Assembly (NCBI GenBank): GCA_028015205.1 | Contig: CM051514.1 | Coordinates: forward strand, 43,788,150 to 43,852,149 | DNA length: 64,000 nt | Origin: Mytilisepta virgata | Taxonomy: Eukaryota > Mollusca > Bivalvia > Mytilida > Mytilidae | Direction of reading: 5' to 3' | In this document: piece by piece, positions 3,001 through 56,578 of the stretch | Layout: every line of letters starts with the position of its first letter | Numbering within the stretch: the first letter of the stretch is position 1 | Made by a program: the position numbers and the translations under genes | Notes under the pieces: model-generated | What the model was told of the DNA's origin: nothing | Databases searched by the model: none | What the model saw: the letters and a program-made list of their open reading frames with translations, nothing else

Positions 3001-3035
3001 TTTACGGACGGGAACGAACGTTTACGGATTTCAGT

Positions 3036-3212
3036 CCTTACCATAACCGTAACTCGAGTCTTAACCCGAACCCTAACTCGAGTCCTAACCACAACCCTAA
3101 CTCTAACCCTAACCCTAGTTCTAACCATAACCCTAACCTTAACTCTAACCCTAACCCTAGTCCTGCCTCTAACCCTTATCGTAGGTCTGTATCGTACTCT
3201 TACTCTAAACAA
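3036..3212. repeat. Degenerate interstitial telomere-like (CCCTAA)n array
   Basis: Dozens of 6-bp words of the CCCTAA/CTCTAA/CCATAA/CTCGAG type run in phase, with exact CTAACCCTAACCCTAG stretches around 3103-3117 and 3145-3159. The plus strand is the C-rich strand, so TTAGGG reads on minus. On the minus strand it gives an Arg-Val repeat that is open into the Gypsy zinc-knuckle frame, a chance fusion. Confidence 0.8.
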
Positions 3213-17792: not shown

Positions 17793-17800
17793 GAAAATTA

Positions 17801-18089
17801 CAATCCAAAGATACTAATATTAGATATAGTAAATTTATACTATGCTGTATACGACGCATTTCAAGGAGTTACCTCTCATCAGCAGCATTAAAACCGAAAC
17901 ATTTTGAAGACCAAAAACCAAACTTATATTAAACAAGAAGTACTCAACCAAAAATACCGAAATAGGAAGCCAAATTTCAGCTAAGAAGATCTACCATGTG
18001 CAATACAAGGAATGAACCCTTAGTATTTCTATTATTTTTGAATTTTGCTAAATACTGGTAATTTCTGTAACAAATCAATGAATAATACT
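17801..18089 (-). mobile_element. Retrozyme-like element fragment with hammerhead ribozyme
   Basis: Minus-strand homologue of 25040-25325 over about 290 bp. It is truncated at its 5' end: similarity stops after AATGAATAAT near 18089. It carries the hammerhead motif at 17842-17888 and the end phrase CTATATCTAATATTAG-TATCTTTGGATTGT. Confidence 0.75.
17842..17888 (-). ncRNA. Hammerhead ribozyme motif (copy 1)
   Basis: Minus-strand 47 nt, in order: stem I strand ATGCTG; core CTGATGA; stem II GAGG/CCTT with loop TAACT; core GAA; stem III ATGC/GTAT (one G-U) with loop GTC; cleavage-site A; stem I strand CAGCAT. All three stems and both conserved core boxes are present, and the predicted cut follows A in UA|CAG (NUH rule). 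It is identical to the copy at 25226-25272. Self-cleavage is inferred, not shown. Confidence 0.75.
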
Positions 18090-23916: not shown

Positions 23917-24898
23917 CTTATATTTCAAAAACTAAAGCATTTAGAGCAAAACTGACAGTGGTAAAAAGTTTCATCAGGTCAAGATCTACCAGCCATGAAA
24001 TTTTAAGACAAATCAGTCAACCCTTTGTTGGTTTTTTTGCCCCTGAATTGTACATTTAAAGGAAATTTTGCAGTTTTAGGTTATTCACTTGAAAATTATT
24101 AGATAAAGACAAACTGTTAACAGCAAACAAGTCAACATGACCAAAACTGTCAATTGACCCCTTAAAGGAGATTTTGCCCTTGAAAGATTAGTAATTATCA
24201 GTAAAAATAATGGTCTGACATTGTCATAGATGTTAAGACCATAACTTGAAATAAATTATATGGTAGCTGTACAAGTAAAATGGAGGGTCAAGAGTCAAGG
24301 TCATTCAAAAAGTCCCTGGCACAATTTAGATTCAGAACCCTATAATTTACCTGTACAAGTCAAAAAGAAAGGTCAAGAGTCAATGCCATTGAAACTATCC
24401 ATAGCAACAGATGAAAAAGCTCAAGCAACCATATATATTTGGGTTCAGGATTCAATATTAAACTCTTGGGAGCTTGTTAAATTACAAATCTTTCCCAAGT
24501 GGAGCGCAGCGGAGCGAGGGTAGACAACAAACTATAAAAATGAGTTGAAGATTTTCCAGTTCTCCACTTTTGAAATAGTATAAGGCCATACCAAATTTAT
24601 CTTTAGTTTTTTGGACAATATGAATTTTAGACTTCGCAGCAATGGTACTTAGGAGGTTCCCTTTCAGAAATGCGTCCAATGACCTGGACTGTAAACCAAG
24701 ATGGCCGGCACAGCCGAACTTGGTTTAACGTAGGTCACTATGGGAAAATTCATTGAAAAATCTTTTTGTATGTAACCACTTGACCAATTGGAACCAGACT
24801 TGGCAGCAATTGTCCTTAGATGGCCCTATTTCAGAATTTTGTGCAATGAGCCGGATAGTGAACTGATTAAGATGGTGGCCACATCTGAACTAAGTTAA

Positions 24899-25325
24899 TT
24901 TACTATATCTAATACTATAGTATCTTTGGATTGTTATTTTGAAACTCCTGGGATGATGCCTCTGCTGGTGGACCCTAGGTCCCCGAGGGTATTCGCCAAC
25001 CCAGTCGTCAGACTTGTCTGACATGATTATTCATTTTGATTTGTTACAGAAATTACCAGTATTTAGCAAAATTCACAAATAATAGAAATACTAAGGGTTC
25101 ATTCCTTGTATTGCACATGGTAGATCTCCTTAGCTGAAATTTGGCTTCCTATTTCAGTATTTTTGGTTGAGTACTTCTTGTTTAATATAAGTTTGGTTTT
25201 TGGTCTTCCAAATGTTTTGGTTTTAATGCTGCTGATGAGAGGTAACTCCTTGAAATGCGTCGTATACAGCATAGTATAAATTAGCTATATCTAATATTAG
25301 CTTAAGTATCTTTGGATTGTTATTT
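24899..25325 (+). mobile_element. Retrozyme-like element with terminal direct repeats and hammerhead
   Basis: A 427-bp insertion in an E copy, flanked by TTAA on both sides (24895-24898 and 25326-25329). About 42 bp at its 5' end (ACTATATCTAATACTATAG ... TTGGATTGTTATTTT) recurs at its 3' end, giving a monomer period near 381 bp. The hammerhead at 25226-25272 lies just before the 3' repeat. The 5' repeat starts about 14 nt downstream of where the ribozyme would cut, as expected if a cleaved multimeric RNA was copied back. There is no open frame. The phrase GATGATGCCTCTGCTGG...CCCCGAGGGTAT is shared, from memory, with an abundant mussel repeat that also has a hammerhead-like end. Confidence 0.75.
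25226..25272 (+). ncRNA. Hammerhead ribozyme motif (copy 2)
   Basis: ATGCTG - CTGATGA - GAGG/CCTT (loop TAACT) - GAA - ATGC/GTAT (loop GTC) - A - CAGCAT. The predicted cleavage is between 25266 and 25267. Stem I is 6 bp and perfect. The closing pair of stem II is G-U, which may weaken activity. Confidence 0.78.
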
Positions 25326-25616
25326 TTAACATAGAACCCAATGGAAAAATTCATTATAAAGTATTCTTATATGAAAACACTTGACCAGTCTGAACATGAC
25401 TTGTCAGTAATAGTACTTAGATTGTTTTCTTTCAGAATTATGTCTGATGACCATGACCGTCAAGTCAAGACGGCAAACACAGTCATACTTAGTTTAACAT
25501 AGGACCCTATGGGAAAACCAGTAAAATTGAATGCTATACTTAACTTTTAGTCCTGCTCAAGGTGGACAAGTCAAATCCAGGAGAGTGATACAGGCTCTTG
25601 AGAGCCTCTAGTTAAA

Positions 25617-26200
25617 TTCCCCCCCCCCAATAGTTTGGGGGATATATAGAAATCAGCCTGTCCGTCTGTCTAGAAATTTTGTACCCACATTCTCTCAAAC
25701 ATCATAGCCTTATCAGAGGTTAATCAAATTTTGCATACTGTTAGATCCTAGTACGTAGACGTGCGCATGCGAAGTATGTCCTGGTCCAATACTATTTCCC
25801 ATAATTTTATACCCTTTTGGACTTAGAAATTCTGTCTATCCCACAATTTTTTTTGGTAATATACCAACATTATGTCTCTTTTTAAGAATTATTCCATTCA
25901 GTTATACCCAGTTGAACAGCGTTATAATGTACATGTACTTGTACCCATTTAATTATACCCCCGGCAAACATAGTTTTGGATATATAGGAATCAGCATGTC
26001 CATCTGTCCATCTGTCTGTCTGCCTGCGTGCCCATATTTTTTTTGTACCCGCAGTTTCTCAAACATGCCTTATCAGAGGTTAATGAAACTTTAGTGTTAG
26101 ATCCTAGTACGTAGATGTGCACATGCAAAGTATGTCCTGGTCCAATACTTTTTCCCATAATTTTATACCCTTTTGGATTTAGAAATTCTGTCTATCCCCC
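25617..26200 (+). repeat. Repeat family F, two units
   Basis: Unit heads CCCCCAATAGTTTGGGGGAT (25622) and ATACCCCCGGCAAACATAGT (25954) form hairpins before ATATATAG. Both are followed by GATCCTAGTACGTAGA and GTATGTCCTGGTCCAATAC. A third unit follows the E insertion at 27522. Confidence 0.65.
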
Positions 26201-27665: not shown

Positions 27666-28397
27666 GTTCTAGTCCATTACTTTAGTCTTTTATTAGATAT
27701 GCACATAATAAGAATTTTATTGATCAATTACCTCCTCATAGCTTTGTTAAATAGGGCCTCAAAATTTTATAACACAGATTTGATATCAGGTGTGTTTTTG
27801 AAAATTAACAGCAGCATGGGGTATAGTTAGTGAAAGTTCTAGTTGTTTTTGTTTTTCAAAATTTTAGACCCTGAGCACAAGTGATGAGTCGTAACTCGTC
27901 AAAATCTGCACATCTTGTGCATCAAGTTTTATATCTAATAATACTGCCATGATTTTAAGGGTAAAGTTGTGCGAGAAATTATGACTATGTTCTAGACAGC
28001 AACTTCGTTAAAACTCCACCCTTTACTGCTACACTATAATACTGTTGGAATGTTTGGGAGTAGCCCCCACCCCCTTTCCCAAGGTGTTGATATTTTATAT
28101 TTGTCCAATAATACCAAATTTTAACTTACAATGATAAATAAAGTCCAGGTGAGCAAGACAGGCTCCTGGGAGCCTCCATTTATTATGATTAAATGATAAA
28201 TTCATTTCAGCAATTGAGGCCCTAAGGAGTCTCTACTTACATTTTGTAATGTAATTAGATAATGCATTAAAACTACGGTTGTAATATATTGAGATATTTT
28301 GGTGTAGGGATTATTTAGCTTTAATTTTGGTACATTTGCAACATGCCAAAATATCCCATTTTGAGTTGAAATTAAAGATAATTTTTTTTGTTTTCAG
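27666..28397. other. Intron-like stretch with family E tail fragment
   Basis: CCAGGTGAGCAAGACAGG and AGGCTCCTGGGAGCCT (28145-28176) are a solo 3' end of family E. The rest is unassigned, ending in the splice acceptor TTTTGTTTTCAG (28397). Confidence 0.5.
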
Positions 28398-29229
28398 GAA
28401 GAAACCACGAGTTTATGTTAACAATGAGAAGAACAGAATGCTGAACAGGGTTGGTAAGCCCTATGGTTATGTTGCTGCAAGACCTATGTCTGAACCTGTG
28501 CGGTGGTCCAGACGAGTCCGAGGTCTGGAACCTGTTCCTGACATTCCCGCACCCCCTCCTTCTCCAGAAGTGGCTAGAGAGGCTCCTGAAGTCTCAATAG
28601 AAACTTCTGGTGAGTTAACTTTTTCAGTAGTCTTCTCTCCTGCATCAGAAGTTTCTGATATGGAAGAAAAGTCTAAAGAGAATTTTACACTGGAGGTGAC
28701 CATTGGGCGTCTGCCAGAGGATTTGATGGCCAGTTTTTCAGTTTCTGAGGATTTGCCATCTTATCCTTTGGCAGAATCCACGCCTGTAGCTTCTGAAGCA
28801 CCATCACCACAGGAAGTGTTATTTAGGGATGCCACACTTGTTTTGTCCGACTCAGATGAGATGATAGAGACGAGTGTTGACTTATTTAACACAACTGTGG
28901 AGGTGATTGTTTCAGGGGAACAGGCCTGCACTTCTGTGACACCATCACCACGGATGGCGTTATTTAGGGATATCACACTTGTTTTGTCCGACTCAGATGA
29001 GATGATAGAGACAAGTGTTGACTTATTTAACACAACTGTGGAGGTGATTGTTTCAGGGGAACAGGCCTGCACTTCTGTGACACCATCACCACGGATGGCG
29101 TTATTTAGGGATATCACACTTGTTTTGTCCGACTCAGATGAGATGATAGAAACGAGTGTTGACTTATTTAACACAACTGTGGAGGTGATTGTTTCAGGGG
29201 AACAGGACTATGGAGCAACATCTCCATGA
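28398..29229 (+). CDS. Coding exon of an unrecognised acidic protein with 47-residue repeats
   Basis: Preceded by a good acceptor (TTTTGTTTTCAG) and open for 277 codons to a TGA at 29227, far beyond chance in AT-rich DNA. The start is basic (KKPRVYVNNEKNRMLNRV), then WSRRVRGLEPVPDIPAPPP, then an S/T/E/D-rich region. Three copies of a 47-residue unit follow, each with LVLSDSDEMIETSVDLFN, starting at 28813, 28954 and 29095. I see no signal peptide, membrane segment or known domain. The ATG-led frame from 28327 would read through the intron end, so exon use from 28398 joined to 9034-9047 is preferred. An internal donor (TTG|GTAAGC, 28454) could instead end the exon at 28453 and join 54119 in phase. 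The frame stays coding-like for about 30 codons past the TGA, hinting at a recent nonsense change. Function unknown. Confidence 0.65.
28813..29208 (+). repeat. 141-bp in-frame tandem repeat, 2.8 copies
   Basis: The 141-bp period (47 codons) is exact: GTTATTTAGGGAT recurs at 28818, 28959 and 29100. Copies 2 and 3 are nearly identical and copy 1 differs at a few sites. The mutual similarity indicates a recent expansion or gene conversion. Confidence 0.95.
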
Positions 29230-30478: not shown

Positions 30479-31214
30479 CAGCTTATGGCCAGTATTTGCA
30501 AAACTGATAGAAAATTTTCTCAGTTCAATCAGAATGGGCAGTTCTTTAAGAATGTATATTTCTGAAACTTTATAAAATGCAGTATATGATATTTGTAAAA
30601 TTGGTTCCTTACCTGTAATTTAAATTATGTGACGGTTGCAAGGCACCATGTGAAAAGATGTGTATGCATATTTCTTTCTGAGGATTTGAACAATTGTCAT
30701 TCCATAGTTGTGGGAGGATTAATTGCAAATTATATGCAGTTGTTCAGATATGAACATAGCTTAACATACAACCCTATAGGAGCTTCATGTTTGAAACCAC
30801 AAAGCTAATTGGAACAAAACTTGACAACAATGGTCTTTAGGTAGATCCTCTTTCAGAATTATATCTGATTACCCTTAAGTGCCTGCTGTCCAAGATTGCT
30901 AGAAGAGCCAAATAACATTGGATCCTATTGGAAATTATTTTTCTTGTCTGAATTTACGAAGTCAATTTGAACAAAACTTGGCAGAAAGTCCTCTGTAAGA
31001 ATTGTATGCGATGACCCCACCATCCAAAATAGTGCCAGACCCAAACATAGTTTAACATAGGATCTTGAGGCAAAATTCATTGAAAGATCTTATTTGAAAC
31101 CAGTGAAGAATTTGGCAAAACCAGTGAGCCATGTCCAATGTAATCTCTGTTGATTACAGAAGGTCCATCCTCTTTCAATATCCATTGTAATCTTTACTGA
31201 TTTTAGGAGGTAAG

Positions 31215-31702
31215 TCCATCGTTCGTAAACTGTATCTGAAACCATATGGGGAAAGACATTTTTGTCAATTGCTCAGGAACTAATTAGCAGATTGTAACCA
31301 AACTTGGTATGAATGATGAATGGAAGGACCTCTACAAACGATGTACCATTGGTTCTGGTTGGATGAACAACATGGCCGCCACAGGCCGTCTTTGATTTTT
31401 ATTGGCCAATTTAAAAAAATCGGGGTTCTCCTCTGAAACTACATTATGAAATGTTTTGAAACTTTGCAGGATTGATGATAACAAATGATCCACTTTTGAT
31501 ATTCATATGATCAACCAACAGCTGGAAAAGGACTTTTTTGTCTTTTTATCAGGAACTAATGTACCAAAGTTAGCAAGGCATATTCAAATAATCTCTCCTT
31601 TTTTTTGGGGTCAAAAGTAAAATATCAAGGTTTCTTTAGCAGCAAATGGCCTAATAAAAGCCACATGACTGGTATAGGCTCACCTCCTGAAGAACCTCTT
31701 GT
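31215..31702 (+). mobile_element. Family E remnant in duplication unit 1
   Basis: AACCAAACTTGGTATGAATG, CAACATGGCCGCCAC and GGCTCACCTCCTGAAGAACC mark a diverged copy. The counterpart is at about 39130-39655. Confidence 0.55.
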
Positions 31703-32251
31703 TTGATATTATTTTTATTTTATTTTATTTTTTTAATAAGAAATAAGAATGGTTTCATCAAATTAACCATTTAGAATATTAACTTAGTATTTTAGCTTTT
31801 TCAACAAAAAACAAAAAATCAAAAAGGAAATAAAAATGAAAAACTGTGTGTAATAATTGGGCTTATAATCATTATTTCGCATTTGTTTTGATATTTAATT
31901 AAATATTTAAAGAAAAATCATTAAATATGTACAGAAGTAAACAAAAAATTAATTTTAAATTTGATAAACATCTTTTGATGTCAGATGATAAGCAGAAAAA
32001 AGCTTAATTTATTCAACTTTTTAAAATTTCTTTTTTCTTCGTGCATACTTGAGATTTGTGTTTTGATTAAGAGATGCTCAGAATTAAATTAATAATAATT
32101 TTGTTAACCCAACACTCAAACACTTGAAAATAATAATTCAGTAACTAATTGGTAAAATTATTAAAATCTTAAAATTTATTTGGCTGATATGTAAAGTATT
32201 ATTTTAAAAATAAAATTGGACATGATTGACCTATAGACTTTTCCCTCCTTG

Positions 32252-32338
32252 TTGTTATGGATACAGTTTGGTTTGATTGGTTGTTATGGAGACAGTTTGG
32301 TTTGATTGGTTGTTATGAAGACAGTTTGGTTTAGTGAT
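32252..32338 (+). repeat. 29-bp tandem repeat, three copies (unit 1)
   Basis: TTGTTATGGAGACAGTTTGG recurs at 29-bp steps. The same array lies in unit 2 at about 40196-40282. Confidence 0.8.
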
Positions 32339-33344
32339 TGATAGTTTTTGTTGTGTTGTTTTTGTTACCAGAGTTGTTCAGGTATTTGTGTTTCTTGGTT
32401 GTCATTCATCCCCTCCCATTCAAAGACAAACTGCAGACATAAAAAGTGACAGATTTTTAAATAAAATTTTTTTTTAAACTTAAAATTGTTTTTCAGAAAT
32501 CAGTTTTTTAATTAAAAGTGGTAGTGTTGGTAATTAACAATTGTAATTTGATTTTGGCATCTCTCAATGATAACACTTTGTTCTGGGAAAAATTGATGAA
32601 ATTATTTTTGAAAATATAATTGTTTGGAAAATTTGATTGTCTTTATTTCAATTGGTCTTATATATTTTACAATTTTTTTTAGGTATCTGATGAAACCATT
32701 TTTTTCCAATCAATTTTGCAAGTAAAAATATTTTTTGGTTAAATTTTATTTTATTTTTTTTAAAATTGAAATTACATTTTAAGGAACGGAGCATAACATT
32801 TTTTTTAAAAACCCCTGAAACTACTGAGGGGATTGTAACCAAACTTGGTAGGAATGATGTATGGAAGGAGGTCCTCTACAAACAATCCACTAATTGGACA
32901 ATTTTCAAAAATCTCTGGAACTACATTATGAAATGTTTAGAAACATTAAGGTTATTTTCACAGTTTGCATTTCTTTACCAGCCTTGTGGAGGATAAAGGG
33001 AAGGGGCTTACCTTCTGTAATTGGTACAGTTTACATTGGATGTGTGGAAGGGGCTAACTTTCTCCAATCAATAGAGAGTGCATTCATCGTATGTGGGGAA
33101 AAAGCTTACCATCTGTAATCATTGCTCTAGCTTTACTGGACTCATCCTCTGTGCTGCATGATATCATTCAGCTGAAACTGCATGAGGCATAGACTTTCTT
33201 TGATAGGGAATAAAACTCACAAAAATCAATTCTGATTTGTTAATCGTGTTTCTAAATACAAATGCTCTACCATTCATTTTTGGCATACAGTAAAAGTTTT
33301 TTTTATTTTACTACTAGGGCTTTCACTGCTGCTGCAGAACTTCA

Positions 33345-33760
33345 GGTACATTTGTATAGATAGATATACATTGTTTTATGGACTCACATCATACATAGAT
33401 ATTCTTTTTTTTTTATGTCGCATCTATATATAGAAACCTACATGGAGATACATATACTATGTAAATATAGATATATAATCAAAGACATCTAGATAGATGC
33501 ATTGTTAAATGATGTCACATCTATATATAGGAATATAGATAGATAAGAATAGAAAAAGAAAGAGATAGGTGAAGATGCACATTGTTTTGTGACAGTTACA
33601 TAGATAGAAAAATACATGTAGAGAGATACAAATTTATTGTTTTATGATGTCACATCTATAGATAGAAAAATAGGTATAGATATAGATAAATACGTCACAT
33701 CAAAATATATAGATAAATTTATTATGACGTCCATCTATTTATAGAAATAGATAGATATAT
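33345..33760 (+). repeat. ATAGAT-rich simple-sequence tract (unit 1)
   Basis: Irregular runs of ATAGATAGATA and ATCTATATATAG separated by GATGTCACATC. The counterpart is at about 41300-41710. Confidence 0.7.
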
Positions 33761-34574
33761 AAGAAATAATATTTGATGGTTGTTTTTATGTTTTTTTACC
33801 ATAGTATTTTCCAGATTTCCATTGGAGTATCATAGAAGATTATTGACTGTTACACGGTGCAGTGAGTTGTTGATTTGATTGATTGATTGTGATTTATCTC
33901 CAAGCAGGCAAAAGATTAAAAAAAATGTTAAATGTTGAAATGCATATATAACTGCCACTCATTTCAGTAAGGGACAAGACATATTAAAATTTTAGATTCA
34001 TCTTGAAGAACAATTTGAGATATTCCAGAAAAAAATCGAAATTCTGCGTTAAAAATGACACACAGAAGATTATTTGAATAGCAATCACTTGTGCAGAAGA
34101 TTTAAAAGACGGAGATCATTCATACATGCAAACAAAGTAAGGTAACCTTGAGAAGAAAAAAAAGTGGTTTCTGCAGAAGTTAAAGTAAGACCAAATTATT
34201 ATGACTTTGCAAGTCACAAGTAGATGATGCATGTAACTTTTCACTTAGTTTTGCAGGTTTCAGAGAAAGAAAGAAGCCAAAGTTTGGTATATCTTTAGGA
34301 GCCTTGCTGATTGAAGAATGGTGAAGTATTTCAACCAAGTAATGTATGTGGCAGATTTTTTAAGAGTCCAGGTTTTCATCTTTCATCAATATCTAGTTTC
34401 ATAGATGACACATCTTTACCCCGGATTCTTTTACATCCATGAATTTATCTCTATCAGCTTATTTTTGCAGAGATGGGCAATGAATTTTTCATTTTTGGGA
34501 GAAATTGTGAATATTCATATTTAGATTTTTGGCTCATCTGGCCTATATAAAAAAGAAGTACTGAAAGCTCCTCT

Positions 34575-35055
34575 TGTGTTGTTAAGTTTAGGTTGGACAT
34601 GTCCTGATGTGCTGAAACTTTTTGTTCCTCTTGTGCTGAAAAGTTTAGGTTTGACATGTCCTGATGTGCTGAACCTATTTGTTACCCTTGTGCTGAAAAG
34701 TTTAGGTTGGTCATTTCCTGAAACTTTTTAGATAGGACATATATTGAGACTATTTGGTCCAACAAGTGCTGCACTCTACATTTTACATGTCCTGATGTGC
34801 TGAACCGTTTTGTTCCTCTTGTGCTGAAAAGTTTAGGTTGGACATGTCCTGAAACTTTTTAGATACGACATATATTGAGACTATTTGGTCCAACAAGTGC
34901 TGAAACTTTTACATTTTACATGTCCTGATGTGCTGAACCGTTTCGTTCCTCTTGTGCTGAAAAGTTTAGGTTGGACATGTCCTGAAACTTTTTAGTTAGG
35001 ACATATATTGAAACTATTTGGTCCAACAAGTGCTGAAACTTTTACATTTTACATG
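34575..35055 (+). repeat. 60/132-bp VNTR (unit 1, three long units)
   Basis: Sub-repeats of about 60 bp (AGGTTGGACATGTCCTGATG, TTGTGCTGAAAAGTTTAGG), then 132-bp units with GACTATTTGGTCCAACAAGT (about 34731, 34862, 34995). Most of it is copied in unit 2 with two long units. Confidence 0.8.
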
Positions 35056-36638
35056 TCCTGAAGTATTGAAACTTTGTTATGAGATCATTTTATTGCAATT
35101 ATCCTCTTGTGCAGAATTTCTTTAGTTTTGACATTTATAAAGGCTTTCAAAAAATCATTTTCAGCTGACAGTTAATTTTCATCATGAAAATTTCTGAAAC
35201 TTTATAGAAATAGACAATTAGTGAACCTACGTTAATAGCTAGGCTTAAATTATTAAATTATTGGTCTGAAACTGTAAAAATGTTGGTTCAAACATGAAAA
35301 TCTCTGAAACTTCATGGAAATAGACAGTGAACCTAAGTTCATAAGTTTACATTATTAAATTATTGGTCTCACTAATGTAAAAATGTTGGTTTGAACATGA
35401 ATTTATGAACCACTGTTTTATCTTTTGACAAAAATATAACTATTATGTTTCATAAAATGCAGTCCAGTAGATTTTTTAACTAATTTCCTTTGTGCATATG
35501 TCAGTGTAAAGTCTAAAATATTTTGCAAAATTATCAGTTTTTAACTTCAGGGTCATATATTGGCAATGGACTATTTTTTTTTTTATCTCTTTCTATTTTG
35601 CATTTTACAAAATTGGTTGAATATTTTTTTTTAATGATTTGAAGTCTCAGGAAATTTCCAGTTTCATCAGATTCTAAAGGTTTAAGCAAATGTTTCTTTT
35701 AGTATACAATAATTTAAATTAAAAAAATTTACAATTACTTTCCATTGAAGGATACTAAGATCTGTACTACACTAATACCTGCACTTTCCCTCCAAACAAT
35801 CCTACACATTTAACAGTTTAAATATAAAAAATATAAATACAAAAATAAAACCCTTTTATAATGTAGGAATATGCAACACAAATGAAATCTAAAATTTTGT
35901 TTAAAAAAAAGAAAAAAGAAAACTACAAAAAAACAACAAAAAATCTTAACAATAAAAACCAAAACAAAGCAATAAATAAAAATAATCAAAATACTCAGCC
36001 CAAAAATATTACTAACATTTATGGAAAGTATTTGTAAAATGCTAAAATGGGAGAAAGACTATAAAACATGGTTTCAAATTTCAATTTTTGTTTCATAATG
36101 ACATTTTACACTGATCTCATAGGTTTGAATATTTAGTTAAGTGTAGTCCATTGTTTAATAAATGACATTTTTTTAACAAAACTCCTCTGAAACTGATTTT
36201 AGACAGAAATATTTTAAAATGAATATTTTTGTCCTCTAATTTTGTCCTTGAAATATTTGATTTTTTTCAAAAGCTTCAAGAAAATCCTTATTTTTATTTA
36301 TTTTCTGGATGAATTTTAATTAAAAAAAAGAAATTAACATTTCATTTTTCCAATTATAATACATTATAGCCTTTGAAACTTTCATGTACAGAAACATGCT
36401 TTGGTCATGTCAGTTGGGCATGTATGACTTGCAGAAAATGATCACATATCTTCTGATGAAGTTCACTGTATTGTAGGTCACTAATTTGTCTAAGGACAAG
36501 GTCACTGTAACTAATTATGACAAATGATTATTTTGTGTAGTTATAAATTTACACCTTATGTTCAATCAGTTTTGGTTATGAGTACTTCTAGTTTCAAAAT
36601 AAGTTTGTTTTTTTGGTCTTCCAAATGTTTCTGTTTTA

Positions 36639-36687
36639 ATACTGCTGATGACAGGTAACTCCTTGAAATGCGTCGTATTTACAGTAT
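36639..36687 (+). ncRNA. Hammerhead ribozyme motif, degenerate (copy 3)
   Basis: Within a 5'-truncated retrozyme fragment (about 36575-36736). ATACTG - CTGATGA - CAGG/CCTT - GAA - ATGC/GTAT - TTA - CAGTAT. Stem I keeps 6 bp with an A-U pair where copies 1 and 2 have G-C. The stem II closing pair is C-U, and two extra bases sit before the cleavage position, so it is probably inactive. Confidence 0.6.
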
Positions 36688-37516
36688 AGTATAAATTAAC
36701 TATATCGAATATTAGTATCTTTGGATTGTTATTTTGCAAAGTTGAATATGGTTCAGTCAAAAAAAAGACGGACAATAGTATAGGAAAATTGTATCAGCAC
36801 CAGTACATTTCTCCAGTGTTCATTTCTATAGCATTTTACATCTAAATCCTTATATATTTATATATTTTTTTTTTATATAAAATTGGTGATTTCTGTTCTG
36901 GGTAAAAAGCACATTCAGTTCAGTTAAATCCTGAAGTGAGGATACATAGTTAAACACAATGACAGGAAAAAGGCAAATTCATGAAGTAGTGGTTTAGGGA
37001 AGTAGAGTCAACATTGGTTCTCAATGTCCCATTTAATCTGGGAAAAAAATTCCATGTGTTCGATTGTCTCAATGATGTTTTAAACCCCATATCTTTATAT
37101 TTTGATAAGATTTGTTGATAATATATGTCATTCGTTGTAATAGAGCACATTACCTCATGTTAAGGGCCTTAGGCATATTGACAGCACACTACATAAGGGA
37201 AAAGACAATTTCATGGGAAAAAGTGGTTTAGGGAAGTTATGTCTACATTTGTATGTGACAAAATTTAATAAACGTTGTTACTATCAATTGTTCTGGGTAA
37301 TTGGGCAGTTCAAGCATACTTTATCCTCTATACAGTCTCTATTATAAGAAATATCATGAAAAATAGTGGTTACGAGAAATTAAGTCAGCATTGATACATG
37401 TACAATTTTGCTTGAAATTTTGTAGAATTATTGAACTCAGGTCAATTTCTAAATCAGTCCTTTATGAAATATTGTAAAGAAACTTAGATTTTATTCATTA
37501 AATCAATTTTAAAAGT

Positions 37517-37756
37517 GGGATCTTGGTGGGTGAGTGCTAGGTAGTTCGTTGTGACTACTGATGATCACTAACCTGTCAGCACTGAGGTCAGTTTGAATCT
37601 CACCTGTGGCAAGTGTGTTCTCAAGGATTGGCAATTTTCCTGCAGAAGGTCAGTGGTTCTGTCCTGAGGTACACTAGCTTCCTCCACCAATAAAACTGGC
37701 TGCCACAAAATAGCCAAATGTGCTGAAAACGGCATAAAACCCCAACTAAACCAAAC
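37517..37756 (+). mobile_element. 240-bp tRNA-derived SINE (unit 1)
   Basis: The head is tRNA-like (GGATCTTGGTGGGTGAGTGC; B-box-like GTTTGAATCTCACC). The 3' part GGCTGCCACAAAATAGCC...GGCATAAAACCCCAAC resembles conserved domains of mollusc SINEs, and the tail is ACCAA-rich. The 13-bp target duplication CAATTTTAAAAGT is at 37504-37516 and 37757-37769. Confidence 0.75.
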
Positions 37757-38277
37757 CAATTTTAAAAGTAGGATTTTTGGTTAATTGTTACGTATTTATT
37801 TGTTGGTGACTATTAGCTTTTTAAAATGACAGGAAATGTTAATTTTTTTTTTCTTTTATTGTTAACTGAATTTATAAAATATTTTACTTGCAAGGTTTTG
37901 CCCAGTATTTCTTAAGATCAGTTAAAATTGTGAAGCCGAACTTTTTTTGATAATTAAGAATGTTGATTTTGGTAACAGTTTTAACATATTTTTAATGCTG
38001 CATATAAAATTGATAATTTAAAAGCACAAGTAACTTACCAGAAATTTGCCCATCTGTTTTTTTCCCTTCTTTTTGAGTACATCAGTTGAATATTTGTTTG
38101 GCTTTTTACAGATATTTACAATTAAAAAAACTGTGTAATGATTGAATTTTATCAATTGGTCATCTGACTTTCATTTGGAAAATTATTTTGCAATTTCATT
38201 TCTGTTTTTTTTGTGATTTTTTTTATTATTATTTTTATTTTTTTATTTTTTCTTTTAGATTTTATTATTTTTTTCTA

Positions 38278-38504
38278 GGTACCTGTGATGTTTCACAGGG
38301 GCTCAACACCCAGAGCTGCCTAGCGCGTCCCCAGGTGGCGGATAGGGGATGCCCTCATTAGAGGGTTGTCAGGTCATAATAAGAAAAGCCTGACCGCGGA
38401 CCATAGTCGGTGACGTGTTTGGAGAAAACCACATGTCCACTCCATGCACACTAAAGATCCCATCAGTAGATTTCAGGCTAAAGCCACTAGAGAGGTTTAA
38501 TTAT
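38278..38504 (+). repeat. GC-richer dispersed-repeat-like block (unit 1 end)
   Basis: GGTACCTGTGATGTTTCACA through GCACACTAAAGATCCCATCA stands out in base composition. The copy in unit 2 continues past the duplication end to about 46560. It resembles a retroelement fragment but shows no frame. Confidence 0.4.
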
Positions 38505-39129
38505 CAGCTTATGGCCAGTATTTTCAAAACTGATAGATAATTTTCTCAGTTCAATCAGAATGGTCAGTTCATAAGAATGTATATTTCTGAAACTTTATAA
38601 AATGCAGTATATGATATTCCATAGTTGTGGGAGGATTAATTGCAAATTATATGCAGTTGTTCAGAGATGAACATAGCTTAACATACAACCATATAGGAGC
38701 TTCATGTTTGAAACCACAAAGCTAATTGGAACAAAACTTGACAATGGTCTTTAGGTAGATCCTCTTTCAGAATTATATCTGATTACCCTATAGCTAGTGC
38801 CTGCTGTCCAAGATTGCTAGAAGAGCCAAATAACATTGGATCCTATCGGAAATTATTTTTAAGATCTTTTTCTTGTCTGAATTTACGAAGTCAATTTGAA
38901 CAAAACTTGGCAGAAAGTCCTCTGTAAGAATTGTATGCGATGACCCCACCATCCAAAATAGTGCCAGATCCAAACATAGTTTAACATAGGATCTTGAGGC
39001 AAAATTCATTGAAAGATCTTATTTGAAACCAGTGAAGAATTTGGCAAAACCAGTGAGCCATGTCCAATGTAATCTCTGTTGATTACAGAAGGTCCATCCT
39101 CTTTCAATATCCATTGTAATCTTTACTGA

Positions 39130-39655
39130 TTTTAGGAGGTAAGTCCATCGTTCGTAAACTGTAGTTTGTTCAAATTTTCCATTGAAACCATATGGGGAAA
39201 GACATTTTTGTCAATTGCTCAGGAACTAATGGGCAGATTGTAACCAAACTTGGTATGAATGATGAATGGAAGGACCTCTACAAACGATGTACCATTGGTT
39301 CTGGTTGGATGAACAACATGGCCGCCACATGCCGTCTTTGATTTTTATTGGCCAATTTAAAAATTCGGGGTTCTCCTCTGAAACTACATTATGAAATGTT
39401 TTGAAACTTTGCAGGATTGATGACAACAAATGGTCCACTTTTGATATTCATATGATCAACCAACAGCTGGAAAAGGACTTTTTTGTCTTTTTATCAGGAA
39501 CTAATGTACCAAAGTTAGCAAGGCATATTCAAATAATCTCTCCTTTTTTTTTGGGTCAAAAGTAAAATATCAAGGTTTCTTTAGCAGCAAATGGCCTAAT
39601 AAAAGCCACATGACTGGTATAGGCTCACCTCCTGAAGAACCTCTTGTTTGATATT
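39130..39655 (+). mobile_element. Family E remnant in duplication unit 2
   Basis: Same content as 31215-31702, with an extra GTTTGTTCAAATTTTCC segment near 39165. Confidence 0.55.
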
Positions 39656-42600
39656 ATTTTTATTTTATTTTATTTTTTTAATAAGAAATAAGAATGGTTT
39701 CATCAAATTAACCATTTAGAATATTAACTTAGTATTTTTGCTTTTTCAACAAAAAACAAAAAATCAAAAAGGAAATAAAAATGAAAAACTGTGTGACTGT
39801 AATAATTTGGCTTATAATCATTATTTCGCATTTGTTTTGATATTTAATTAAATATTTAAAGAAAAATCGTTAAATATGTACAGCAGTAAACAAAAAATTA
39901 ATTTTAAATTTGATAAACATCTTTTGATGTCAGATGATAAGCAGAAAAAAGCTTAATTTATTCAACTTTTTTTAAATTTCTTTTTTCTTCGTGCATACTT
40001 GAGATTTGTGTTTTGATTAAGAGATGCTCAGAATTAAATTAATAATAATTTTGTTAACCCAACACAACACTTGAAAATAATCAGTAACTAATTGGTAAAG
40101 TTATTAAAATCTTAAAATTTATTTGGCTGATATGTAAAGTATTATTTTAAAAATAAAATTGGACATGATTGACCTATAGACTTTTCCCTCCTTGTTGTTA
40201 TGGATACAGTTTGGTTTGATTGGTTGTTATGGAGACACTTTGGTTTGATTGGTTGTTATGAAGACAGTTTGGTTTAGTGATTGATAGTTTTTGTTGTGTT
40301 GGTTTTGTTACCAGAGTTGTTCAGGTATTTGTGTTTCTTGGTTGTCATTCATCCCCTCCCATTCAAAGACAAACTGCAGACATAAAAAGTGACAGATTTT
40401 TAAATAAATTTTTTTTTTAAACTTAAAATTGTTTTTCAGAAATCAGTTTTTTAATTAAAAGTGGTAGTGTTGGTAATTAACAATTATTGTAATTTGATTT
40501 TGGCATCTCTCAATGATAACACTTTGTTCTGGGAAAAATTGATGAAATTATTTTTGAAAATATAATTGTTTGGAAAATTTGATTGTCTTTATTTCAATTG
40601 GTCTTATATATTTTACAATTTTTTTTAGGTATCTGATGAAACCATTTTTTTCCAATCAGTTTTGCAAGTAAAAATATTTTTTGTTTAAATTTTATTTTTT
40701 TTTTTTAAAAATTGAAATTACATTTTAAGGAACGGAGCATAACATTTTTTTTAAAAACCCCTGAAACTACTGAGGGGATTGTAACCAAACTTGGTAGGAA
40801 TGATGTGTGGAAGGAGGTCCTCTACAAACAATCCACTAATTGGACAATTTTCAAAAATCTCTGGAACTACATTATGAAATGTTTAGAAACATTAAGGTTA
40901 TTTTCACAGTTTGCATTTCTTTACCAGCCTTGTGGAGGATAAAGGGAAGGGGCTTACCTTCTGTAATTGGTACAGTTTACATTGGATGTGTGGAAGGGGC
41001 TAACTTTCTCCAATCAATAGAGAGTGCATTCATCGTATGTGGGGAAAAAGCTTACCATCTGTAATCATTGCTCTAGCTTTACTGGACTCATCCTCTGTGC
41101 TGCATGATATCATTCAACTGAAACTGCATGAGGCATAGACTTTCTTTGATAGGGAATAAAACTCACAAAAACCAATTCTGATTTGTTAATCGTGTTTCTA
41201 AATACAAATGCTCTACCATTCATTTTTGGCATACAATAAAAGTTTTTTTTATTTTACTACTAGGGCTTCCACTGCTACTGCAGAACTTCAGGTACATTTG
41301 TATAGATAGATATACATTGTTTTATGGACTCGCATCATACATAGATATTCTTTTTTTTTTTATGTCGCATCTATATATAGAAACATACATGGAGTTACAT
41401 ATACTATGTAAATATAGATATATAATCAAAGACATCTAGATAGATGCATTGTTAAATGATTTCACATCTATATATAGAAATATAGATAGATAAGAATAGA
41501 AAAAGAAAGAGATAGGTGAAGATGCACATCGTTTTGTGACAGTTACATAGATAGAAAAATACATGTAGAGAGATACAAATTTACATTGTTTTATGATGTC
41601 ACATCTATAGATAGAAAAATAGGTATAGATATAGATATATACGTCACATCAAAATATATAAATAAATTTATTATGACGTCAATCTATTTATAGAAATAGA
41701 TAGATATATAAGAAATAATATTTGATGGTTGTTTTTATGTTATTTTACCATAGTATTTTCCAGATTTCCATTGGAGTATCATAGAAGATTATTGACTGTT
41801 ACACGGTGCAGTGAGTTGTTGATTTGATTGATTGATTGTGATTTATCTCCAAGCAGGCAAAAGATTAAAAAAAATGTTAAATGTTGAAATGCATATATAA
41901 CTGCCACTCATTTCAGTAAGGGACAAGACATATTAAAATTTTAGATTCATCTTAAAGAACAATTTGAGATATTCCAGAAAAAAATCGAAATTCTGAGTTA
42001 AAAATGACACACAGAAGATTATTTGAATAGCAATCACTTGTGCAGAAGATTTAAAAGACGGAGATCATTCATACATGCAAACAAAGTAAGGTAACCTTGA
42101 GAAGAAAAAAAAGTGGTTTCTGCAGAAGTTAAAGTAAGACCAAATTATTATGACTTTGCAAGTCACAAGTAGATGATGCATGTAACTTTTCACTTAGTTT
42201 TGCAGGTTTCAGAGAAAGAAAGAAGCCAAAGTTTGGTATATCTTTAGGAGCCTTGCTGATTGAAGAATGGTGAAGTATTTCAACCAAGTAATGTATGTGG
42301 CAGATTTTTTAAGAGTCCAGGTTTTCAACTTTCATCAATATCTAGTTTCATAGATGACACATCTTTACCCCGCATTCTTTTACATCCATGAATTTATCTC
42401 TATCAGCTTATTTTTGCAGAGATGGGCAATGAATTTTTCATTTTTGGGAGAAATTGTGAATATTCATATTTAGATTTTTGGCTCATCTGGCCTATATAAA
42501 ATTATTGTTGTTTCTGAAACTTTTATATTACACATGAGGTGAACCCTTTAGTACCCACACATGCTGATTGTACATGAACTCAGAGCCCTTGATCTCACAT

Positions 42601-42669
42601 GTGCAGAAAGTTTTATGTTGCATAAGAGTTCTGAAACTTCTTAGGCTGGGTACCACATGTGCACAGTAC

Positions 42670-43050
42670 ATACCCAGAAGTACTGAAAGCTGCTCTTGTG
42701 TTGTTAAGTTTAGGTTGGACATGTCCTGATGTGCTGAAACTTTTTGTTTCTCTTGTGCTGAAAAGTTTAGGTTTGACATGTCCTGATGTGCTGAACCTAT
42801 TTGTTCCCCTTGTGCTGAAAAGTTTAGGTTGGACATGTCCTGAAACTTTTTAGATAGGACATATATTGAGACTATTTGGTCCAACAAGTGCTGAAATTTT
42901 ACATTTTACATGTCCTGATCTGCTGAACCGTTTTGTTCCTCTTGTGCTGAAAAGTTTAGGTTGGACATGTCCTGAAACTTTTTAGATAGGACATATATTG
43001 AGACTATTTGGTCCAACAAGTGCTGAAACTTTTACATTTTACATGTCCTG
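42670..43050 (+). repeat. 60/132-bp VNTR (unit 2, two long units)
   Basis: Same words as 34575-35055. Long units begin near 42853 and 42985. Confidence 0.8.
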
Positions 43051-44613
43051 AAGTATTGAAACTTTGCTATGAGATCGTTTTATTGCAATTATCCTCGTGT
43101 GCAGAATTTCTTTAGTTTTGACATTGATAAAGGCTTTCAAAAAATCATTTTCAGCTGACAGTTAATTTTCATCATGAAAATTTCTGAAACTTTATAGAAA
43201 TAGACAATTAGTGAACCTACGTTAATAGCTAGGCTTAAATTATTAAATTATTGGTTTGAAACTAAAAATGTTGGTTCAAACATGAAAATATCTGAAACTT
43301 TATGGAAATAGACAGTGAACCTAAGTTCATAAGTTTACATTATTAAATTATTGGTCTCACTAATGTAAAAATGTTGGTTTGAACATGAATTTATGAACCA
43401 CTGTTTTATCTTTTGACAAAAATATAACTATTATGTTTCATAAAATGCAGTCCAGTAGATTTTTTAACTATAATTTCCTTTGTGCATATGTCAGTGTAAA
43501 GTCTAAAATATTTTGCAAAATTATCAGTTTTTAACTTCAGGGTCATATATTGGCAATGGACTATTTTTTTTATCTCTTTCTATTTTGCATTTTACAAAAT
43601 TGGTTGAATATTTTTTTTAATGATTTGAAGTCTCAGGAAATTTCCAGTTTCATCAGATTCTAAAGGTTTAAGCAAATGTTTCTTTTAGTATACAATAATT
43701 TAAATTAAAAAAATTTACAATTACTTTCCATTGAAGGATACTAAGATCTGTACTACACTAATACCTGCACTTTCCCTCCAAACAATCCTACACATATAAC
43801 AGTTTAAATATAAAAAATATAAATACAAAAATAAAACCCTTTTATAATGTAGGAATATGCAAAACAAATGAAATCTAAAATTTTGTTTAAAAAAAAGAAA
43901 AAAAGAAAACTACAAAAAAACAACAAAAAATCTTAACAATAAAAACCAAAACAAAGCAATAAATAAAAATAATCAAAATACTCAGCCCAAAAATATTACT
44001 AACATTTATGGAAAGTATTTGTAAAATGCTAAAATGGGAGAAAGACTATAAAACATGGTTTCAAATTTCAATTTTTGTTTCATAATGACATTTTACACTG
44101 ATCTCATAGGTTTGAATATTTAGTTAAGTGTTGTCCATTGTTTAATAAATGACATTTTTTTAACAAAACTCCTCTGAAACTGATTTTAGACAGAAATATT
44201 TTAAAATGATTATTTTTGTCCTCTAAAGAAATATTTTATTTTTTTCAAAAGCTTCAAGAAAATCCTTATTTTTATTTATTTTCTGGATGAATTTTAATTA
44301 AAAAAAAAGAAATTAACATTTCATTTTTCCAATTATAATACATTATAGCCTTTGAAACTTTCATGTACAGAAACATGCTTTGGTCATGTCAGTTGGGCAT
44401 GTATGACTTGCAGAAAATGATCACATATCTTCTGATGAAGTTCACTGTATTGTAGGTCACTAATTTGTCTAAGGACAAGGTCACTGTAACTAATTATGAC
44501 AAATGATTATTTTGTGTAGTTATAAACACCTTATGTTCAATCAGTTTTGGTTATGAGTACTTCTAGTTTCAAAATAAGTTTGTTTTTTTGGTCTTCCAAT
44601 TGTTTCTGTTTTA

Positions 44614-44662
44614 ATGCTGCTGATGACAGGTAACTCCTTGAAATGCGTCGTATTTACAGTAT
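44614..44662 (+). ncRNA. Hammerhead ribozyme motif, degenerate (copy 4)
   Basis: Unit 2 counterpart of copy 3. Stem I is ATGCTG against CAGTAT (one G-U). It has the same stem II mismatch and the same two extra bases near the cut site. Confidence 0.6.
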
Positions 44663-45490
44663 AGTATAAATTAACTATATCGAATATTAGTATCTTTGGA
44701 TTGTTATTTTGCAAAGTTGAATATGGTTCAGTCAAAAAAAAGACGGACAATAGTATAGGAAAATTGTATCAGCACCAGTACATTTCTCCAGTGTTCATTT
44801 CTATAGCATTTTACATCTAAATCCTTATATATTTATATTTTTTTTTTTTTTATAAAATTGGTGATTTCTGTTCTGGGTAAAAAGCACATTCAGTTCAGTT
44901 AAATCCTGAAGTGAAGATACATAGTTAAACACAATGACAGGAAAAAGGCAAATTGATGAAATAGTGGTTTAGGGAAGTAGAGTCAACATTGGTTCTCCAT
45001 GTCCCATTTAATCTGGGAAAAAAATTCCACGTGTTCGATTCTCTCAATGATGTTTTAAACCCCATATCTTTATATTTTGATAAGATTTGTTGATAATACA
45101 TGTCATTCGTGGTAATAGAGCACATTACCTCATGTTAAGGGCCTTAGGCATATTGACAGCACACTACATAAGGGAAAAGACAATTTCATGGGAAAAAGTG
45201 GTTTAGGGAAGTTACGTCTACATTTGTATGTGACAAAATTTAATAAACGTTGTTACTATCAATTGTTCTGGGTAATTGGGCAGTTCAAGCATACTTTATC
45301 CTCTATACAGTCTCTATTATAAGAAATATCATGAAAAATAGTGGTTACGAGAAGTTAATCAGCATTAATACATGTACAATTTTGCTTGAAATTTTGTAGA
45401 ATTATTGAACTCAGGTCAATTTCTAAATCAGTCCTTTATGAAATATTGTAAAGAAACTTAGATTTTATTAATTAAATCAATTTTAAAAGT

Positions 45491-45730
45491 GGGATCTTGG
45501 TGGGCGAGTGCTAGGTAGTTCGTTGTGACTACTGATGATCACTAACCTGTCAGCACTGAGGTCAGTTTGAATCTCACCTGTGGCAAGTGTGTTCTCAAGG
45601 ATTGGCAATTTTCCTGCAGAAGGTCAGTGGTTCTGTCCTGAGGTACACTAGCTTCCTCCACCAATAAAACTGGCTGCCACAAAATAGCCAAATGTGCTGA
45701 AAACAGCATAAAACCCCAACTAAACCAAAC
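45491..45730 (+). mobile_element. 240-bp tRNA-derived SINE (unit 2)
   Basis: Duplicate of 37517-37756 with the same 13-bp target duplication (45478-45490 and 45731-45743), so the insertion predates the 8-kb duplication or the allele split. Confidence 0.75.
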
Positions 45731-46244
45731 CAATTTTAAAAGTAGGATTTTTGGTTAATTGTTACGTATTTATTTGTTGGTGACTATTAGCTTTTTAAAA
45801 TGACAGGAAATGTAAATTTTTTTTTCTTTTATTGTTAACTGAATTTATAAAATATATTTTACTTGCAACGTTTTGCCCAGTATTTCTTTAGATCAGTTAA
45901 AATTGTGAAGCCGAACTTTTTTTGATAATTAAGAATGTTGATTATGGGAACAGTTTTAACATATTTTTAATGCTGCATATAAAATTGATAATTTAAAAGC
46001 ACAAGTTACCAGAAATTTGCCCATCTGTTTTTTCCCTTCTTTTTGAGTACATCAGTTGAATATTTGTTTGGCTTTTTACAGATATTTACAATTAAAAAAA
46101 CTGTGTAATGATTGAATTTTAACAATTGGTCATCTGACTTTCATTTAGAAAATTATTTTGCAATTTCATTTCTGTTTTTTTTGTGATTTTTTTTATTATT
46201 TTTATTTTTTTCTTTTTTCTTTTAGATTTTATTATTTTTTTCTA

Positions 46245-46560
46245 GGTACCTGTGATGTTTCACAGGGGCTCAACACCCAGAGCTGCCTAGCGCATCCCCA
46301 GGTGGCGGATAGGGGATGCCCTCTCATTAGAGGGTTGTCAGGTCATAATAAGAAAAGCCTGACCGCGGACCATAGTCGGTGACGTGTTTGGAGAAAACCA
46401 CGTCCACTCCATGCACACTAAAGATCCCATCAGTAGATTTCAGGCTTAAGCCACTACAGAGGTTTAATTATCTGTCTCTACCCAACTACCCTCACATTTC
46501 TGGTCGGAGTCAAAAGATTTTGCTTTTATTTTTGTCCCACCGCAGTTTTTTCATTCCCTA
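46245..46560 (+). repeat. GC-richer dispersed-repeat-like block (unit 2 end)
   Basis: Same block as 38278-38504. It extends through CCACTACAGAGGTTTAATTA to about 46560, crossing the duplication boundary at 46471. Confidence 0.4.
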
Positions 46561-50869: not shown

Positions 50870-51806
50870 ATGTTGCCCATAGATGTAGTCGGGACGACAT
50901 ATTGTTATTGTTTAGTTTCTTTGCTTTTTTTTCTTCCACCTAATATTGTTTGGATGAGTTCTCAGAGATGGCTGGAACTATCTTTATGAAACTTCACAGT
51001 AATGATGATCACCAAGTCTAGTTGTGCATGTAACATTAAAAATTTTCAAAATGGCCACCGTTGCCATGGGAATGGAAAAAGTATGAAAATATTTGGAAAA
51101 CTTAAATTTTATTTTTTTCAGTACCTGCCCAAACAATCTTTTTGAAACTTTGAAGGATAATTCCTTGCATCAAGTCAAACTGATTTCTGTAAAAAATTGG
51201 TTGGACAAACTTTCACTGTTGCCATGGAAACAAAAAAGGGATTTTTGTTTAAATTTGATTTTTTGCTCCAAAGGTATTTCAAACTGCATAAAATGGATAT
51301 GTAAGTGTCTCCCCAACTTTTGGGGTTTCAAAATTTCCAAAATGGCTGCAGTTGTCTTGGAAACCAAAAAATTTCAAAATTTTACACCAAAATATTTAAA
51401 ACTTCACAGTAAGGACCTCTACCAGTTTAAGGGGTTCAAAATTCCATAAATGGAAAATTTGAATAATTTTTATTGTTTAAGAAGCAATGATTATTGTTTA
51501 TGCATTAATTCCAAAACACTGCAAATAAATTATTTTTGTTCCATATAACAATACAATTTCAGTATTTTCCATTTAAGTCAATACTTTGAATTACTATAAA
51601 CTTTAGAAGTATTTATTGAACAAAACCATTGCCTTAGGTCCACAAATGTTTTTAACAGCAATCCAATCCTTTCATTTTAAAACTCAACATTGTCCGATTT
51701 CTATGAAAATTTATATCTAGGCTAATTTTGGTATGGCGAACAAGATGCAACCATCGAAATAGCTGCCAGGGGCGACATCTGCTATTGCTCCCAATGGCAA
51801 TTCTAA
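50870..51806 (+). mobile_element. Hairpin-ended repeat family G, copy 3
   Basis: Starts ATGTTGCCCATAGATGTAGT...GGGACGACAT (decayed hairpin). Units with TTGCCATGGAAACAAAAAAG. Ends CAGGGGCGACATCTGCTATT...CTAA. Butted against the preceding G fragment. Confidence 0.7.
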
Positions 51807-56160: not shown

Positions 56161-56568
56161 TGAAAAAACTTTATGGCTGTAAAATATTATAACCCAACTA
56201 AACTGTGAAAAAATTATGTACTAACAATAAGTAGTTTTTGAGTAATAAAACTTCTTTATGTTGTCATAACATTAAAATGTATACTTAAATGAGAAGACCT
56301 CATTTTGTGTGTCGCTTCTCTTCCTTCCACAATAAATTAATCATCTTGCCTCTGTGTTCTATAGGTACCATGCATAGTCGTATTTGTCATCCTCGCTTAT
56401 GATTATTCCGTTTGGGTTATTCTGGGAGGAAAACGAAAATAAAGGCGTCCGGATATTGTTTCCGACATCGGACGGAAATTTTAAGTCCTAGACAAGACTT
56501 CCGTTTAAAATTACACAGAATTTTATAACTCGAATAATTACAGCGCCCCCTTACGGTCATTGTCCTCC
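56161..56568. other. Unassigned, CpG-bearing stretch
   Basis: Contains CGTCCGGATATTG...CATCGGACGG near 56446-56476. No gene seen. Confidence 0.35.
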
Positions 56569-56578
56569 AGTGATCGTA

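Follow-up and report, generated by a model that had tools for sequence, protein, structure and literature searches.

What kind of element is inserted at positions 24899–25325 of this DNA, and what do the ends of its insertions suggest about how it was copied? Animal retrozymes yield abundant circular RNA, and one question about them is which agent copies these RNAs back into DNA. Here, we analysed a 64,000-nucleotide stretch from the bivalve Mytilisepta virgata (the window), in which a preliminary description had placed a retrozyme-like element with a hammerhead ribozyme between terminal direct repeats. The best explanation, which we consider highly probable, is that the insert is one genomic copy from a family of animal retrozymes that are non-autonomous and non-coding, with units of ~382–386 bp, related to the family known from mussels and spread by the cycle proposed below. 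Much of that description was upheld, namely a non-coding hammerhead element of which slightly more than one unit was inserted; the distinctiveness that it attached to stem III was not.

Structure of the insertion and its target site

The complete insertion (copy A; Table 1) lies within a degenerate host repeat (24500–25620), and related pieces of this host repeat occur near 11.5 kb, 17.3 kb, 30.8–31.1 kb, 38.7–39.0 kb and 48.9 kb. Two neighbouring host-repeat units carry an uninterrupted GTTTAAC at the site where copy A has TTAA on both sides, which delimits the insert and its target-site duplication. Taken alone, a 4-bp TTAA match in A+T-rich DNA would be weak evidence for such a duplication.

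The terminal direct repeats, previously put at ~42 bp, were recovered as imperfect repeats of about 41–44 bp: segment 24897–24917 is 86% identical to 25279–25299 at a spacing of 382, and segment 24919–24943 is 96% identical to 25305–25329 at a spacing of 386. The unit therefore measures 382–386 bp (G+C 35.9%), and the monomer period of 381 bp given earlier holds roughly and not as an exact value. The start of copy A corresponds to 25281, which is 14 nt beyond the predicted cut, as had been noted for the start of its 5' repeat; its end lies 59 nt beyond the cut one unit later. At 1.1 units it is no dimer, and none of the four copies in the 64-kb window forms a dimer or longer array. No stop-to-stop open reading frame of at least 130 aa (the size cut-off used) overlaps or adjoins copy A.

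Several unrelated features were seen elsewhere in the window. These were a 33/66-bp tandem array (349–709) with a 168-residue open frame on the minus strand; an open frame on the minus strand (802–1206) whose GDSL lipase-like match falls below threshold (E 0.0055); an imperfect TAACCC-like array (3033–3176), perhaps an interstitial telomere-like repeat; and a 314-residue open frame on the plus strand (28285–29226), in which a 141-bp unit (47 codons) is repeated 2.9 times in frame at 96% identity and a Pfam match lies inside the repeat, with no stretch passing alone.

Table 1. Positions of the retrozyme-like element, its parts and its copies in the window
Feature	Positions	Strand	Basis or remark
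Copy A, ~1.1 retrozyme units	24899..25325	+	TTAA flanks; terminal direct repeats; single GTTTAAC in neighbouring host-repeat units
Target-site duplication TTAA, left	24895..24898	.	Flank comparison
5' terminal direct repeat ("tail" at unit head)	24899..24939	+	Matches 3' repeat
Unit start (stretch after tail in relatives)	24949..24993	+	tblastn; 5 of 5 tail-crossing peptides, from 24949/24934
Type I hammerhead, stems I/II/III of 6/4/4 bp	25226..25272	+	Descriptor match; alignment of copies
Predicted self-cleavage point after A25266	25266..25267	+	Position H17, inferred from structure
3' terminal direct repeat (tail)	25282..25325	+	Ends 59 nt past predicted cut
Target-site duplication TTAA, right	25326..25329	.	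Flank comparison
Copy B, 5'-truncated, start = equivalent of 25026	17794..18086	-	94.7% over 301 aligned positions
Copy B hammerhead, same 6/4/4 helices	17842-17888	-	Descriptor match
Copy C, 5'-truncated, start = equivalent of 25161	36570..36739	+	87.2% identity
Copy D, same insertion as C	44545..44714	+	87.2%; carried by ~8 kb tandem duplication

A type I hammerhead motif and its predicted folding

In copy A, stem I (ATGCTG/CAGCAT, 6 bp) is followed by the core CTGATGA, stem II (GAGG/CCTT, with a 5-nt loop and a closing G.U pair) by GAA, and stem III (ATGC/GTAT, with a 3-nt loop and one G.U pair) by A25266 and C25267, between which the cut is predicted. A three-helix descriptor, which was written with the motif already known and is the sole model-type support for the hammerhead, matched twice on the two strands of the window (at 25226–25272 and at 17882 on the minus strand) and in none of 300 dinucleotide shuffles of the window searched on both strands, bearing out the three-stem hammerhead described earlier. 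Minimum helices of 4/3/3 and 5/3/3 were applied to the window and to the shuffles; a 6/4/4 setting, applied to the window only, gave the same two matches. The preliminary description had named covariance models and other copies with paired stems as checks. The first gave a negative answer, as the Rfam hammerhead models had no match at gathering scores in the whole window and none at E values up to 10 within 24500–25700. The second gave a positive one: the 24-base core, at up to three mismatches, occurs four times in the window (0.00 expected), and the copies could be aligned.

Energy calculations did not favour the hammerhead fold, which was computed at −7.1 kcal/mol for the 47-nt motif versus −12.6 kcal/mol for the best alternative; the hammerhead pairs had a probability of 0.21 or less in the 47-nt motif and lower in the circle. 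The circular unit folded hardly better than its shuffles (z −1.0, 60 shuffles), and circular folding was dismissed on this ground as proof. Across the four copies, 97.2% of 72 hammerhead cells were paired, the two unpaired cells falling in stem II of copies C and D, and sliding the helix partners by 1–3 columns reduced pairing to 28.6–65.7%, with the structure read from these same sequences. The stem I pair 14–58 is G-C, G-U or A-U among the four copies and is the sole pair changed on both sides; covariation was likewise dismissed as proof, since it concerns one pair that 276 of 500 shuffles matched.

Apart from a single central U.U, stem III and its loop are self-complementary; a two-strand hammerhead was computed at −26.3 kcal/mol versus −29.9 kcal/mol for the best dimer fold. 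Action as a dimer is thus possible in these models, as in the amphibian satellite and retrozyme hammerheads that are described in parts of PMC7229834 as working as dimers and that share the near-self-complementary stem III; helix III has four pairs here versus one or two in axolotl (PMC7229834).

Further copies and the ends of three insertion events

The four copies in the window stem from three insertion events, as copies C and D lie within a tandem duplication of ~8 kb (30699–34552 with 38616–42501, and 34781–38505 with 42772–46472, each ~97.5% identical). The duplicated blocks that carry these two copies span 30699–38505 and 38616–46472 (~97.5%). The hammerhead core bases are retained in all four copies of the alignment; copies C and D share a broken stem II pair and two extra bases in stem III. 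The 3' flank of copy B matches a neighbouring array, and nothing else in the window resembles its 5' flank, so the exact empty site of this copy could not be placed.

All three events share one 3' point, within a T run, and have three differing 5' starts. Beyond the common ...GGATTG-T/A-ATTTT, each enters unrelated DNA; the element's 3' end sequence, for comparison with the 3' ends of other elements, is TATCTTTGGATTGTTATTT. Inside copy A, the 5' repeat continues from that same T run into GAAACTCCTGGGATGATGCC, and thus the copied RNA seems to extend past the point at which insertions end, a pattern that would be expected if reverse transcription started internally. Together, a fixed 3' end and varied 5' starts fit target-primed reverse transcription that begins at one set site.

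The same 3' end in a T run and the same variation at the 5' end could also be produced if a LINE mobilised a SINE or similar short element that carries a hammerhead; the fixed point would then mark where a linear transcript ends, for instance by stopping at the T run. The window does hold a zf-RVT-type LINE reverse transcriptase (56492–58174). We consider this origin very unlikely. It leaves unexplained why the insert both begins and ends with the tail, and ARAGORN (bacterial settings) reported no tRNA-like sequence in the window, which argues against a tRNA-derived SINE. A BLAST search with the insert found the tail nowhere in the window outside the copies, so the LINE seen there does not carry it. 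This LINE-type frame, on the plus strand, is long and matches RVT_1, with zf-RVT below its cut-off; among the best 120 of 337 protein matches, named ones reached 49% identity (Pinctada imbricata) and up to 56% over part of the frame (Mytilus), and the best unnamed one reached 64%. Such identities indicate a bivalve-like host, probably one other than Mytilus.

Relatives among predicted peptides

The unit start presumably resembles a common mussel repeat, and a 41-residue translation of that repeat served as the first peptide query. It retrieved 21 predicted proteins, one of which retrieved 64, giving 72 in total. TDESYVDE, part of a hammerhead-compatible TDESYVDET stretch, occurs in 46 of the 72, and a codon check showed that its codons can encode the hammerhead core CTGATGAGTC...GACGAAAC. 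The contigs, known from their peptides alone, are in this respect compatible with a hammerhead core, which is not proof of one. The spacing between this hammerhead-compatible stretch and the tail equals that in copy A.

Twelve of the 72 peptides reach the tail pattern, after which five continue as LHHWVDATAGGR..., six diverge at once and one stops. In the five that continue, hammerhead, tail and unit start are joined head to tail, as they would be in copy A if it were circular or tandem. The peptides also share the 3' end found for the copies in the window. All five match the window in the same frame at 24934–25038 (tblastn, E 0.003 to 0.31). These E values are non-significant alone, as 15 of 1440 shuffled queries reached 0.003 and three other peptides reached 0.002–0.003 elsewhere in the window; the weight of the matches therefore lies in their position beside the tail in five of five cases.

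Two other candidates were set aside. The stretch 51552–51746 (+) drew weak peptide matches (best E 0.002) and its DNA has no hammerhead core, and seven bacterial records with a 19-base piece of the unit start were attributed to chance, the match to the element being 19–21 bases long. Viral contigs scanned with four patterns gave no match to any of them.

If the insert were an ordinary dead repeat whose hammerhead pattern arose by chance or survives as a functionless relic, the lack of an Rfam match, the poor folding energy and the decay of copies C and D would be accounted for. This explanation is nevertheless highly improbable, given that none of the 300 shuffles produced the pattern, that the core bases persist in four copies and that the relatives keep a hammerhead-compatible stretch at an equal distance from the tail.

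Comparison with known hammerhead elements

A copy of an animal retrozyme accords with what is described for this class in PMC7229834, where animal type I hammerheads reside in non-LTR retrozymes of 170–400 nt with G+C below 45–50%; the unit length and G+C content found here fall within both ranges. The retrozymes of Mytilus galloprovincialis (Cervera and de la Pena 2020, PMC7229834) have units of 350–390 bp with ~5000 type I hammerheads and occur as circular RNA, up to high levels, with slow cleavage; their circular RNAs were deposited as MN642551–MN642576. The present element resembles them in its type I hammerhead, unit length, low G+C, lack of an open reading frame and many copies. It further resembles mussel hammerheads in that most of the standard loop 1–loop 2 bases are absent, and some mussel circles in that the hammerhead fold is not predicted to be freed (PMC7229834). 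The likeness is one of description, the sequence link running through the predicted peptides only.

Animal non-LTR retrozymes occur as tandem dimers to multimers (PMC7229834); none of the four copies in the window does, and 5 of the 12 peptides that reach the tail have the head-to-tail junction. The target duplications of animal non-LTR retrozymes, "when present", are stated in the same source to exceed 4 bp, whereas copy A has the 4-bp TTAA. Plant LTR retrozymes are likewise non-coding and hammerhead-bearing, with circular RNA, but differ in having type III hammerheads, LTRs and units of 600–800 nt, as outlined in PMC7229834.

The preliminary description had taken a 4-bp stem III as the possible mark of a distinct subfamily. 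The relevant parts of the literature contradict this: a minimal helix III is a feature of the hammerheads of Penelope-like elements and Terminons, and invertebrate retrozymes have a stable helix III (PMC7229834, PMC7761336). Stem III was accordingly discarded as a mark of novelty. Copies A and B combine a canonical core with helix III, as animal retrozyme hammerheads do, and copies C and D are altered. The element is new as a member of a sequence family, already known as a kind and ordinary for a bivalve.

The end of the insert has a counterpart in Penelope-like elements. As described in parts of PMC11167929, reverse transcription by a Penelope-like protein begins at an internal point of its RNA, which explains a tail of 30–40 bp, and in Poseidon of Anolis a hammerhead lies beside a tail that recurs where the insert ends. 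The terminal repeat of 41–44 bp and the fixed 3' end in three of three events are as expected of such a tail, and both systems share an A+T-rich target and a fixed internal start on an RNA that continues beyond it (PMC11167929). In contrast to Poseidon, the present element has no coding body and its hammerhead has a helix III, of four pairs in copies A and B versus the minimal Penelope-like form; its tail ends 59 nt past the cut, compared with 85–92 nt in Poseidon by our own arithmetic from PMC11167929.

Copy A could instead be a remnant of an autonomous Penelope-like element, that is, a solo pseudo-LTR (pLTR) with its tail and not an independent retrozyme. As described in PMC11167929, pLTRs of Penelope-like elements bear hammerheads, and these elements have an optional 30–40 bp tail, which the present repeat closely resembles. 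The chance of this appears slim to us. Penelope-like hammerheads are minimal and without helix III in the account of PMC7761336, as opposed to the four pairs found here. Among open reading frames of at least 130 aa, none overlaps copy A, and no reverse transcriptase and GIY-YIG frame lies between pLTRs at copy A. In the five relatives the unit start follows directly after the tail, leaving no space for a coding body in those contigs.

Proposed cycle and its implications

For a non-autonomous retrozyme, we infer a cycle in which multimeric or read-through transcripts would cut themselves at the hammerhead, giving unit-length RNA that would probably be circularised by a host RNA ligase, as published for mussel and axolotl units. 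A reverse transcriptase acting in trans, most likely of the Penelope-like kind or else from a LINE, would initiate at the tail end, an invariant internal position ~59 nt beyond the cut, on DNA nicked at an A+T-rich site. Synthesis would then move left across the hammerhead and make one full round of the unit, stopping at or before a point just past the upstream cut; the product would be either a whole unit with the tail repeated or a copy truncated at its 5' end.

A plausible reading, about which we are somewhat doubtful, is that the terminal repeat is a signature tail left by a Penelope-like reverse transcriptase and not a plain by-product of a circle. Synthesis would start internally, 59 nt past the cut, and full-length copies would end just past the upstream cut since the template would be hammerhead-cut RNA with an intact second hammerhead. 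The Penelope-like hammerhead was dispensable for insertion in vitro in the experiments described in PMC11167929, which counts against cutting being required there. A limited literature search met no report linking the Penelope tail to retrozyme ends. PMC7229834 proposes Penelope-like elements as mobilisers of retrozymes, as a strong candidate only, and names them without evidence from insertion ends in the sections considered.

What this element may offer lies at its insertion ends. As the family combines a constant 3' end and a repeated tail with a predicted cut site, the identity of the mobiliser can be tested through genome-wide counts of insertion ends and through reverse transcription in vitro. 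If the reading of the tail is true, insertion anatomy alone would identify the enzyme that mobilises animal retrozymes.
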